Of a DNA stretch of 64,000 nt, positions 2,757 through 55,329 are shown piece by piece. The stretch's first letter is position 1. The number at the start of each line of letters is the position of its first letter. The notes beneath the pieces were generated by a model. That model worked only from the letters and a program-made list of their open reading frames with translations. It ran no database searches and was not told where the DNA came from. Origin of the DNA: Henricia sp. BOLD:AAB3569 (Eukaryota > Echinodermata > Asteroidea > Spinulosida > Echinasteridae); NCBI GenBank assembly GCA_037783545.1, contig JBBELK010000052.1, positions 1,116,001 through 1,180,000 on the forward strand, written 5' to 3'. The position numbers and the translations under genes were made by a program.

Positions 2757-3320
2757 ATCTTGCAACATGCCCGAAATCTATTTCGAGTGGTCACAAGGGC
2801 TACGACACATTAAAGATGGTTTTGCGATGGGGACGCGACAGGAAAAAAAAAGATATGTCGTGGTTGTGGGTGTGTCGCAAGTCAGTCGTGCGACAGTCGT
2901 GGGACCATCGAGTTGTCAGGCATTGTTGGGGGCTGTTTTTCACGTGATCAGGTCGTGGTTCACTCGTGGGATGCGCGTGCGACAGTCGTGCGACTGTCGC
3001 AAAACTGTTGCACAACAGTCGTGGGTCACTCGTGGGACGCTCGCGCGTCCGTCTCCCGACTATATAACGAGGCCCGGTCTGTTTTTTTTCGTAAGACTGT
3101 CGTAGGACAGACTCACGACAGGCACAAGACATAGATACCACACAAAAATAGTCGAGCAAAAAAGGTGCATATCCAATTTTGCCTCACGACGGCAAGTCGA
3201 TGCCACGATGCTCACAATTTCGTAACTGTCTGGCGATGACCCCCGATGACCCACGATTTGCCCAAATTTTCTGTCGTGTCGTGGCACAAATTCGTCGTGG
3301 GTTCGTTCTGACCAAGCCTT
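2757..3320. repeat. GTCGTGGGAC/GTCGTGCGAC word-rich block
   Basis: Dense, irregular and partly self-complementary copies of GTCGTGGGAC, GTCGTGCGAC and CACGACAG. Three overlapping frames on both strands are by-products. I see no convincing terminal repeat, so boundaries are approximate. Confidence 0.55.
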
Positions 3321-3329
3321 AAGAACCAG

Positions 3330-4370
3330 GTGCACGGAGTCATTACCGCGTCAGTTCCGCGCATAGGCCTAGTTACATGTATTATTATTATTATAATTTT
3401 TGTGGAGAAAGACAGCCTTCATGATGGCGCCGGGCTACACCCGTACCCACAACCTCGACTTGACAGGCAAGCCAGCAAACAAGGTACCTCTTTCAAGCGT
3501 TGGCTTCATAGTCACGAACTCCATACCATCCAAACTTTAAAACCCGCCAGTTTGCCAGTCATTCCGACTCGAGACTCGGACTCGGACTCGATATATTAGT
3601 GACTCGAATATACTACAAAACTGACATTTGGAATGGCCGCTGCGGGCACGGAAAATCCCTCACGAGATGGAAACGCCAAAGAAAGCGAATGTTGTGTTAT
3701 GTATTGTATCAACGCCAATTCTGAGTTGATGTAGTCAAATGCTTATGAAAAGGCCGACGTATACACGGACTCAAAACCGCCCGGTAAATAAACCGAGGCA
3801 ACAAAATAGCCCGATGTCTTACAAATTGCGTACAACACCAAAAGGGGTATATTAAAGGGGACAGGCTAAAAACTGCCAAGACTCAAATCGCCCCGCAAAC
3901 TGAGGCTACAGAATAGCCTGACGTCTTAAGCCTGGTACACACTGGCAAGCTGTTCGGCAAGGCTTCTCCACAGACATCTGTTTGAAGTACGTTTTGAAGA
4001 ATTGTTATCTTGTCGCTAGAGGGCGCTATTACGTACGACGACGTCATCACTTTTATTTTTGGAATGCCTGAGGGCCTCTGACACTGACATCGTTTACCCC
4101 ATCTCAATACATCCTACCATTTTCAAACTAAGGGCCACTTCCGGTTTATACAAGATCAAAGGTCATTGCCACATTTGTTGGTAATACCGTTAACCCCATC
4201 AAATAAACACCTCAACAAAAGTAAGTTCCCCCTAAACAATTGATTATATCTCCCAAAGTAAATTTCGGAATTACACGAAACTTGGTGTGAATGATTACCT
4301 AATTGTATGCATGAATGAGCAGCATTTAAAGGTGAAATTGACACTTTTTCAAAAATTGTGGAAAAGCCAA
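3330..4370. other. No gene recognised; short repeats only
   Basis: Contains (ATT)n near 3381, GACTCGGACTCG near 3570 and a few GAGGCAACAAAATAGCCCGA-like direct repeats (3797, 3901). No coding evidence. Confidence 0.45.
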
Positions 4371-4373
4371 TAA

Positions 4374-4513
4374 TTAAAGGCACAGGCTCGTCAGCAATGC
4401 GCGCGCCAAATTCGTGCCACGAAATACGCAGCTCCGTGTAGCAAAGGCATGGAGCTGCGTATTTCGTCGCACGAATTTGGCGCGCGCGCATTGCTGACGA
4501 GCCTTGCCTTTAA
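4374..4513. mobile_element. TTAA hairpin MITE, about 60-bp arms
   Basis: TTAA on both ends. The arms contain GGCTCGTCAGCAATGCGCGC, CCAAATTCGTG and GAAATACGCAGCTCC, nearly perfectly repeated in inverse around a short GTGTAGCAAAGGCAT centre. No coding potential. Confidence 0.8.
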
Positions 4514-4995
4514 TCCAACAACCCAACAAACAATATAACAAACGAAACAAAGCAAAACTCGACGGGTATGCATCCATGTATATACCGTGTACAATAAAGC
4601 GACGTAAACGCGACGTAAACATTCCAAAATCCAAATGTAATTTCCTTTAATTTATTATTTAAGTACGTACAAAAGTGCCACTTATAAGTAAATCATCAAA
4701 ACAATTACAATATATTCAAACAATAAAATACTCTAATCATTACAATAAAAATGGTTCTTCGCTATTTATAGTAGTCCAGCCTCGTCCACAAATATAATTA
4801 TTTATAAGTGAATTATAAAACCACGCAAGTACATTACGTGCATGTGTAACAACACAGGCTATTCATTAGGGTATCAGTTATATGTACAAATGTCATTCGA
4901 AGATTAAAACTCCAAACTATTAACTATTACAATATTTCGGGACTTTAAAGGATACCCTATGCAAGCGAACGACATACGGCACCAAACCTTTATCT

Positions 4996-5938
4996 AATAC
5001 CCCAGTCACAATTAGCTTGCGGTGGGTTTGTGAGTAGTTTGCGACGGATTTTTAGGCATTTTCGGCCGGCGCCCCACGGGACTCCTTGCGGCTGCCGGGT
5101 AATTTTTGGGCATCGGGCGGGCATCGAGTTACTTTTAAATCGGATTGTAAACCTGGTGCGGCGTTTCGCATCGCAAACTGATCGCCACTAAATCGGTCGA
5201 TGCCTGATCGATGTCCGGCAGGGCATCGCACACATCGGGCGGGCGCCGGGCCAATATTTGGACAACCCAGACAATCCATATATCGGCCAGGCGCCGCCAA
5301 GACGCCGCTCAGACGCCGGCCGGGCCCCTCCCGGCGTCCGGCCCGGCCGGCGTCTGGCCGACCAGCCACTGGGGCTCGCAGGTGCCCAAAAGCGCTGTGG
5401 ATGTGGCCGCAAGCGCTATGGAGCTGGTATTAACGGCATTTTCTTCTTTGTCTTCTTGTTTCTTCGTCTCGTAGAGTGCTCCTAGAGAAAGGTCGAAGTG
5501 AATAAAGAAGGTCAGAGGAGCGCCGCTATATATACCTCACCCCCAAATTGACAAACGGCCGCCAGATCGCGGCCGTTGATCGCTGGCCACTCGACAGGCA
5601 CACTACAGATGCCCGTCCGGCCGCCGTACGGCCTGTAAGAATTGGCCGGCACCCTGCCGGATACCGCAGGGGTATCGCAGGGACATAGGCAGGACATCGG
5701 ACGAGTGCCTGCCGGACACCGGCCGATAAACGGGCCAAGAATTCGACCCCATTTCCAGGAAAGACGGCCTATCGCCTGCCGGCGACACCCCGGGCCCCGT
5801 CATGGCAGCGTGCGGGGCACTTTTAATTGTGACTGTGACCGCCCTATCGCGCGATCTTTCGCCGACCTCTACACGCCGGCCGATGCCTATAAATCGCACA
5901 CGCCGCCCGGCCTCCGCTTGAATTGTGACTTAGGTATA
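4996..5938. mobile_element. GC-rich 0.94-kb TIR element
   Basis: TIRs approximate ATACCCCAGTCACAATTAGC and ATACCTAAGTCACAATTCAAG. The interior is far more GC-rich than the surroundings and is composed of GCCGGC, GGGCATCG and GCCGGACATCG variants, partly palindromic. All frames in it on both strands are compositional artefacts. Confidence 0.72.
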
Positions 5939-53180: not shown

Positions 53181-53550
53181 ATTTTTAAAGTTGACCCCAA
53201 GTTGCTCTTAGTGAAAATTGTTATTCTTATATAGAGCATAAAATGGTACCGGGAAAAAAACCTTTCACTGTATACACGCTTCAAGTTCAAGTGCTCCTAT
53301 TTGCAGATTCCCGGAAGTCGACGAAACTGCCACGTTTTACCGTACGTTTACGAGGTCAACTTATAGTATTCGTAAATTACAAAATCGCAGGGCCACTGTA
53401 CTCGTCTTTTTAAAAATTATAAACAGAAAATCATCAATTCTGCAGTATTAATAATCGTATTATTCGTAATCATGACTGATTTGTATGACAAACCATATAC
53501 TATAGTGTACAAACTTAACTGTACACTAATTTTTATTAGTTCTAGAACTT

Positions 53551-53693
53551 AAGCGGGCCTCCCACTGTGCGATTTTTGCCACGAATTAGCTACGATTGGG
53601 TACGATTGTGTGTAGAGTCTATAGGCAGTCTCCGATAATCGTACCGATTCGTAGGAATTTCGTGGCCAAAATCGCACAGTGGGAGGCCCGCTT
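53551..53693. mobile_element. Hairpin MITE, AAGCGGGCCTCCCACTGTGC, copy 1
   Basis: Perfect outer arms of about 30 bp (AAGCGGGCCTCCCACTGTGC then GATTTTTGCCACGAA on the left). The interior is TACGATT/AATCGTA words. Second copy at 55167. Confidence 0.85.
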
Positions 53694-54243
53694 AATGGAA
53701 ATTTCTGACTTTTGTAGCATATATTTTACGTCCTTGCTAAAAGCGAGCCATTTGTCAAAAACAAAACACGGTAGTCGCGTTGCAAGACAAACAAAGCACG
53801 TATATTATATGATTATCTATTTTCACTTTATAGCTTTTGTTTTCACAATCAATTTTACATCTTTACATTCACAGCGACCACCATCACCAATTTTGGCTTT
53901 TAACCATATACATGTATATAAATTTACACTGGGTAAATATATTGGCTAACTGTAAGTCAATTAATACTAGCATATTATATCAGGAAAAAGGTCTATTACA
54001 CAATAACAAAATGTCTGAACTGACGCGCTTGTATGGCAGCAGACCACTACATTGTGCATCATGCAGGTTCACATTGAGGCTCTAAAAATTAATCGGCAAA
54101 TAAAACTCAAGCGACGAACCTGTTTCCACAAATGAGAATTAAATTTAACATCTAAAATCCATTAATGTTTATTAGCGTACCAACGAAAACGCGCGATTTT
54201 TTTCTATGCGATTTTTAAAAAGGGATCTCTACACGAAATTCCT

Positions 54244-54558
54244 AAAGGCGGATACACACTATCGCGGAAAAATCACACTTTCGCGCTGCGCTCACCGCAT
54301 TACATGAGCCCCCAATCGCCGATCTTTCCAAACTAGAAAATTCCAGTTCTGGTATCTTGGGGCTTCTCTGATACCTCATTGGCTGCGCGCTGGAAAGGTC
54401 AGCGCACCGTGGTCAAAGTTCAACAAATTTGAACTTTCAACAAATTTGAACTTTGACCCAGCTCAAAACGTTTTGCGCGTCGCGATACAAGCGGCAAACC
54501 AGTTTGCGTACGAAACCAATGGCAGTTTGATTTTTCCGCGATAGTGTCAACTCCCCTT
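54244..54558. mobile_element. TIR element, CACTATCGCGGAAAAATCA, copy 1
   Basis: ACACTATCGCGGAAAAATCA at the left and TGATTTTTCCGCGATAGTGT at the right. An internal tandem/inverted AACAAATTTGAACTTT motif. Related to 61846-62060. Confidence 0.75.
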
Positions 54559-55166
54559 AAGAGTGAAAAGTCACTCCATTCGAGTGAAAAATCACTCTAT
54601 CACACTGAAATAAGGACAAGACTATTTGGAGTGAAATTCCCTCACTCCAATAGATTGAAATTTCCCTCGAGTTGTCACTGGAAGGGGTCCCTTTTCAAAC
54701 GTTTTATATATCTAAACTTGTTCACTCTAAAACGTCTACATGTACTTCACTTTGTATCACAATACCAAAGACAAATATCCAAAACAAGTAGTATTGCTTA
54801 ATGTCTTATCTTGAGCAAGACTTTCTAGCAGAGAAAGCCCGGCAACGAATGCGACATATACCTTTGCCTTGCTGGGTAAATTTCCATGACCTATGCATGA
54901 ACTACTAAGACACATGCAGAGGTAATCTATAGTCTATATTTTTCTCTTTGACAAGGATAATTCTATATACAGGTTCGTGTATTTGAAGTAATGGTTTGGT
55001 TTTAAATGTAACATGCAGGATTGGCCTATGTCGTCATTTTCAGAAAGACAATAGTCATCACAGCCAATTCTATAATTACACGCAATATATACCGACTGAA
55101 GGGTCATATACAGCACTTCCTCATGTATATGGTTTCACACGATAGTTATAACAGTTCCGTTTACTA

Positions 55167-55329
55167 AAGCGGGCCTCCCACTGTGCGATTTTTGCCACGA
55201 ATTAGGTACGATTAGCTACGATTTGGTACGATTTCCAGAGACTGTCTATAGACTATACACACAATCGTACCGAATCGTACCCAATCGTAGAAAATTCGTG
55301 GCAAATATCGCACAGTGGGAGGCCCGCTT
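55167..55329. mobile_element. Hairpin MITE, AAGCGGGCCTCCCACTGTGC, copy 2
   Basis: Same outer arms as 53551-53693 and similar interior with one more TACGATT word pair, so the copies differ in internal word number rather than in the ends. Confidence 0.85.

Follow-up and report, generated by a model that had tools for sequence, protein, structure and literature searches.

In a 64,000-nucleotide stretch of the genome of the sea star Henricia sp. BOLD:AAB3569 (contig C52, JBBELK010000052.1, positions 1,116,001 to 1,180,000; hereafter, the window), elements with different terminal inverted repeats (TIRs) carry short CpG-bearing units repeated at a common spacing of 11 bp. The elements are apparently non-autonomous transposons, and we favor, with some reserve, the reading that their interiors are arrays of units bound by a transposon-encoded protein. 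A preliminary description of the window had listed the families here named E1 to E5 and E7 (Table 1), to which we added E8 (n = 3 in the window) and E9 (at locus L072, elsewhere in the genome); both the 11-bp lattice and the E8 family are overlooked in that description. Its basic observation of word-rich, TIR-bounded elements is sound: repeated canonical 6- to 8-mers exceed dinucleotide-preserving shuffles in every named element (for 8-mers, 96 versus 11.9, standard deviation (SD) 4.2, in E2; 68 versus 21.2, SD 5.7, in E1; 47 versus 6.0, SD 3.2, in E7; and 6 versus 0.5, SD 0.9, in the short E4). The interiors had also been described as one palindromic word and its complement. Repeated words are indeed present, but they are degenerate and not all palindromic, and they are united by their CpG content and an 11-bp spacing. 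The observed/expected CpG ratio is 1.15 to 1.90 in the elements and 0.90 in the remaining window, and E1, E2, E3, and E7 have no mutual blastn similarity at E 1e-5.

In E1, E2, and E7, the distribution of CpG-to-CpG distances has maxima at 11, 22, and 33 bp. In autocorrelation over all bases, lag 11 ranks first in E1 (z = 7.7), E2 (z = 9.5), E3 (z = 7.8), and E7 (z = 9.7, measured on 2757-3320), while E5b is led by lags 20, 10, 11, and 21 and E8 by lags 31, 16, and 15. A scan made blind to the finding covered 509 tiles of 500 bp, of which 19 were led by lag 11 (z ≥4.5), all within E7, E1, E2, and E3; the 452 tiles outside the named elements had a mean lag-11 z of 0.23 (SD, 1.12), with none above 4. 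As a detector independent of sequence, lag 11 flagged these four elements and no other region of the window, and it misses E4, E5, and E8. Tiles from the flanks of fetched loci (n = 260) averaged 0.59 (SD, 1.67). Values above 4.5 were found in nine of these tiles: seven from a tandem E3 array and two from L034 and L035, where lag 12 leads. The signal persists against dinucleotide shuffles and with all CpG masked (lag-11 z of 3.7 to 7.6 across E1, E2, both E3 ends, E7, and E9), and lag 11 is also the top lag in the left and right parts of E3 taken separately (z = 6.7 and 5.4 against shuffles). When 11-base windows holding 7 or more matches are scored, 43 to 55% of each element is covered by lag 11. 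Coverage by other lags from 6 to 23 is below 20%, except for lag 22 (23 to 36%), lag 21 in E3 (21%), and lags 9, 18, 20, and 21 in E2 (22 to 26%).

Tandem Repeats Finder reported only short stretches of the lattice and no uniform head-to-tail array of the kind expected of a tandem minisatellite. Its output comprised a period-11 array of 3.5 copies with an overlapping period-20 row in E2, a period-10 array in E3, and a period-10 row of 3.3 copies in E5b, with nothing reported in E1 or E7. When CpG anchors were aligned 11 bp apart and the families pooled, identity was 0.43 to 0.54 at all of the remaining offsets. This rise extends over the full unit rather than being confined to the surroundings of the CpG, so whole units seem to be of shared ancestry; the family-specific core of the unit seems to lie around the CpG.

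Outside the window, the 923-bp lattice element E9 (L072, 6659-7581; top lag 11, z of 10.1) has the TIR AGGCCCGGTCACATAGACGACG and TAA on both flanks. The DNA around it contains AACGTT words about 11 bp apart, with a possible further family at 7600-7701. Four lag-11-led 500-bp tiles outside the known families (L014, 2251; L018, 1001; L024, 2251; and L051, 501) are possibly further lattice elements.

The 740.7-Mb host assembly was searched with E1, E2, E3, E4, and E7, five of the six named families. A copy was counted if its row spanned at least some 88% of the query, and because the best 40 candidates were scored per family, the counts are lower bounds. Other near-full-length copies with the same interior number at least 35 for E1 (91 to 97% identity; best 40 of 820 candidates), 30 for E2 (81 to 95%; best 40 of 46), 26 for E3 (85 to 91%; best 40 of 483), 26 for E7 (80 to 93%; best 40 of 145), and 39 for E4 (93 to 97%; best 40 of 1,834). 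Among stop-to-stop frames of at least 130 amino acids, the only overlaps are with the E1 and E3 right ends, and a Pfam search of the E3 right-end frame gave no match. Copy alignments comprised 8 fetched loci for E1 and the loci with both ends in place for E2 (22/30) and E3 (20/30). Across the distinct rows compared (8 for E1, 19 for E2, and 18 for E3), about 0.7 to 2.5% of sites depart from the majority base, in addition to indels. The E3 set takes in L054 to L057, which form a head-to-tail array of four copies with a period of 1392 bp (C885:171898-177109); since they sit in a single array, they count as nearly one copy.

Word number was said to vary between copies, and units are in fact gained or lost, with 11- or 22-bp steps among the indels. 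Distinct E3 events, defined by size and place, number 11 at 11 bp, 7 at 22 bp, and 4 at 10 bp, with none at 12, 21, or 23 bp; some lie within the central ATGTATGAGT minisatellite, adjacent places may double-count one event, and 1- to 2-bp events are commoner still. One of seven E1 events is of 11 bp, E2 has two 11-bp events among many sizes (2-bp and other sizes predominate), and E7 has a single 11-bp event in one copy. E2 also falls into subfamilies set apart by a block of about 50 to 60 bp. Decay of methylated CpG was considered as the origin of word variants and rejected, as copies show no clear excess of C>T/G>A change at CpG sites (CpG versus other C/G: E3, 0.0144 versus 0.0243; E2, 0.0068 versus 0.0089; E1, 0.0079 versus 0.0060).

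Target duplications differ among the lattice-bearing families. A TWA duplication (W, A or T) is a hallmark of PIF/Harbinger transposons, and a 2-bp duplication is made by ISL2EU or CACTA-type elements. Among 17 distinct two-ended E2 copies from 30 fetched loci, 14 have a 3-bp duplication (TWA in 12 and another sequence in 2) and 3 have none; the flanks of the window copy read TAA/TTA. E2 thus has the target duplication of a PIF/Harbinger miniature inverted-repeat transposable element (MITE). E1 is PIF/Harbinger-like less clearly, with matching TWA in 5/8 copies and TAA against TTA in 3/8. In E3, 18/20 copies are flanked by a 2-bp duplication, whose sequence varies, and 0/20 by one of 3 bp; the family is therefore not filed under PIF/Harbinger. 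Taken together, the lattice is common to at least two target-site classes. The E5 flanks read TTA/TAA in copy a and TAA/TAA in copy b. Once target duplications are read, element edges move by a few bases relative to the preliminary description. The stretch that it offered as a possible further member is a TIR element with the lattice (E7), but the copy is 5'-truncated and its limits differ from those first given (Table 1). Longer E7 left ends are present in L069 and L070, that of L070 being AGACCCAGGCACA. The 3' flank of E7 reads TAA for the window copy and TTA for L069; a copy of E1 abuts E7 in L069 and one of E5 does so in L070, leaving no clean pair of flanks. These MITEs thus insert beside or into one another. 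Among 52 listed exact E2 ends, the longest pair examined bounds a 3.1-kb copy (L076), which was tried as an autonomous E2 but is E2 with an unrelated nested insertion.

The genome contains at least 151 DDE_Tnp_4 matches (best 150 of 606 candidates), two of which, L071 and L072, were picked by eye as lying close to MITE copies. L071 (~2515-6487) and L072 (~1690-6390) belong to one family with 31-bp inverted ends. L071 encodes MADF_DNA_bdg (PF10545, 7.5e-8) and DDE_Tnp_4 (PF13359, 3.5e-32) in genes of opposite orientation, and the L072 copy has a split MADF frame. Judged by this structure, the family is apparently a complete autonomous PIF/Harbinger element. Its 5' non-coding end is led by lag 11 in both copies (z = 4.9 in L071 and 4.7 in L072); in the coding middle of L071, lag-11 z is −0.1 and the lags are mostly codon multiples. 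The L072 element is inserted within the end of an E2 copy, with ATA on each side, and E9 adjoins it; L071 has no matching pair of flanks (read by eye).

Known transposons offer partial parallels. CACTA elements (En/Spm and Tgm) make target duplications of 2 to 3 bp, near the 2 bp of E3, and likewise have family-specific short repeated words. TNPA binds subterminal repeats, and the family-specific words, repeated near the ends, diverge between families (PMC2613891). The present elements differ in that they have no CACTA TIR, space their words at 11 bp, and carry them throughout. PIF/Harbinger elements and their Tourist-like MITEs (mPing and Harbinger3_DR) resemble the present ones in TWA duplications (E2 and partly E1), in short TIRs, and in the resident lattice-bearing autonomous element with its pair of MADF/Myb-like and DDE_Tnp_4 genes. 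The element mPing duplicates TTA (PMC2836001), and Harbinger3_DR has a subterminal motif of 9 bp to which its Myb-like protein binds (PMC9710019). In contrast to those MITEs, words here fill interiors of 600 to 1000 bp at a constant 11-bp spacing. Galileo/Foldback elements are alike in having repetitive non-coding ends, proposed to give binding specificity; the THAP domain of the Galileo transposase binds several sites in the long repetitive TIRs (PMC3688188). They differ in their P-superfamily transposase and long direct repeats, where the present elements have 11-bp units. Our literature search, which had most subscription papers outside its reach, found no description of an 11-bp lattice in MITEs.

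Because the lattice occupies a non-coding end of the autonomous element and not its genes, because that element supplies a MADF (Myb/SANT-like) partner, and because Harbinger3_DR, CACTA, and Galileo provide precedents, binding arrays are the likeliest reading. A transposon-encoded DNA-binding protein would dock on the rows of units and bring the transposase to the element. A MADF-type protein would read the units, whose spacing of about one helical turn would seat neighboring protein molecules on the same face of the DNA, and the arrays would have grown by duplication of 11-bp units, kept since they help mobilization. The differences between copies in 11-bp steps also speak for this model. Every family would be read by a diverged protein specific to it, which would account for its distinct word.

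A number of results weigh against binding arrays. The preliminary description held that families with different ends share one design, a view supported by the lattice of E1, E2, E3, and E7; in E4, E5a, and E8, autocorrelation gives no 11-bp peak. No left-right polarity of words was found in four of five elements; the exception is E7, at P = 0.005 before correction for the 20 tests made. Lattice words show no special conservation between copies relative to other bases: the rate of change is slightly lower in E3 words and equal or higher in E1 and E2 words, E2 CpG sites excepted. The autonomous element represents one family in two copies, and lag 11 is weak at its 3' end (z = 2.5 in L071 and 2.0 in L072). 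Three other DDE_Tnp_4 neighborhoods (L073 to L075) yielded neither bounding TIRs nor a lattice; as their proteins carry HTH_Tnp_4, a different branch, with a THAP open reading frame (ORF) beside one, and as bounding TIRs are lacking, they are weak negatives. No autonomous element sharing its TIRs with E1, E2, E3, or E7 turned up, in a search for such partners that used E2 ends only. Furthermore, a coherent period near 10.5 bp is not shown across all elements, and plain tandem duplication would likewise raise unit identity at every offset.

The last point belongs to the main rival, in which an 11-bp tandem repeat was gained once per element by slippage and then diverged, leaving a decayed minisatellite of functionless units. 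We regard this as unlikely, even though the raised identity at all offsets, the 11- and 22-bp steps between copies, and the words without special conservation are all as it would have them. Unit length is alike in E1, E2, both E3 ends, E7, E9, and the autonomous non-coding end despite their differing sequences, and chance slippage does not explain a common 11 bp, particularly as other array lengths occur here, namely the E3 minisatellite (10 to 11 bp) and the E8 array (15 to 16 bp). The two explanations may hold jointly, with units arising by duplication and kept for binding.

It is also conceivable, at a lower probability, that a 10- to 11-bp rhythm positions or excludes nucleosomes and so leaves the element in accessible DNA. 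The spacing is near a helical turn, and the best whole-element periods are 10.60 in E9, which is clear, and 10.55 in E2, which is less so (P = 0.08 for the maximum). However, nucleosome phasing involves AA/TT steps, and the periodic parts here are family-specific CpG-bearing words; moreover, E7 has no significant global period, the left end of E3 has its maximum at 11.85, and the remaining elements are unsettled between 10.5 and 11 or peak elsewhere. Least probable is the process put forward in the preliminary description, an ongoing expansion of palindromic words in TIR-bounded DNA by replication or repair. It draws on the difference in word number between the two E5 copies, correctly reported as two and three words per arm, and on the 11-bp unit changes between copies. 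Against it, tens of copies have the same interior, off the majority base at few sites; interiors are copied with the element, not individually generated, and ongoing expansion is thus rejected. Copies with identical interiors, named in that description as grounds for discarding its idea, were largely what we found for E1, E2, E3, E4, and E7.

Table 1. Transposon-like elements in the window, with limits as read here and as first given
Element	Position	Strand	Limits first given	Form
E7	2733..3322	+	2757-3320	TIR element copy, 5'-truncated; TCGTG/CACGA-centered unit per 11 bp; right end ...AAGCCT, followed by TAA
E1	4998..5936	+	4996-5938	939 bp, TACC...GGTA; GC-rich CCGGC/CATCGG units per 11 bp
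E8 copy 1	11516..12035	+		TTAA-flanked; central CGAAGTGG array at 15-16/31-bp spacing
E8 copy 2	12927..13447	+		90% identity to copy 1; top lag 31, z 5.4; no lag-11 signal
E2	20794..21432	+	20791-21435	639 bp, start AGGCTATGTCACACAGCC...; ACGTA/CCACG units per 11 bp
E8 copy 3	27118..27616	-		87% identity to copy 2
E3	31547..32603	+	31547-32603	1057 bp, ends CCCAGACAGC...GCTGTCTGGG; GACGTC units left, AACGTT right, central minisatellite
E4	39118..39262	+	39118-39262	145-bp fold-back element, short; AACGTT words; without lag-11 peak
E5 copy a (E5a)	53552..53692	+	53551 copy	Fold-back, AGCGGGCCTCCCACTGTGCG...; two TACGATT-type words per arm; no clear lag peak
E5 copy b (E5b)	55168..55328	+	55167 copy	Three TACGATT-type words per arm at 10-bp spacing; TAA duplication on each side

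The E8 family, of about 500 to 520 bp, has TTAA flanks in 3/3 window copies. Several fetched loci also have E8 in their flanking DNA, and the family is therefore likely abundant. The Kolobok T2-MITE (PMC6004289) is similar in its TTAA flanks and purine-rich AGR start; E8 differs in its 15- to 16/31-bp array. Elsewhere in the window, a long inverted repeat at 4360-4515 (GCACAGGCTCGTCAGCAATGCGCGCGCCAAATTCGTG...), seen by eye, is probably another small fold-back element, and a 12-bp tandem array (TGACCTCAAGGT; 11 copies, 97% matches) lies at 63839-63970. Pfam searches of five window ORFs gave a methyltransferase, a major facilitator superfamily (MFS) transporter, a DUF1759 match narrowly below the cutoff, and two ORFs without a match. 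The DUF1759 match (24.6 versus 25.4 bits) falls in a 540-amino-acid open frame immediately downstream of E3 (33522-35144), which we take to point to a BEL/Pao-type retrotransposon. The best protein match of a window gene is a starfish monocarboxylate transporter (54%), and Rfam reported one tRNA.

It has long been asked how MITEs, which have no genes, outdo their autonomous parents. On a broader and more tentative reading, to which we give somewhat less than even weight, different cut-and-paste families in one genome may have converged on an 11-bp, helically phased lattice of their own CpG words, each read by its own Myb/MADF-type proteins. The MITEs would then be near-pure binding lattices, in effect landing strips that spread themselves and win the competition with their parents for mobilizing proteins. 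The shared 11-bp lattice is a measurable cis feature that may bear on whether binding-site number and helical spacing set mobilization.

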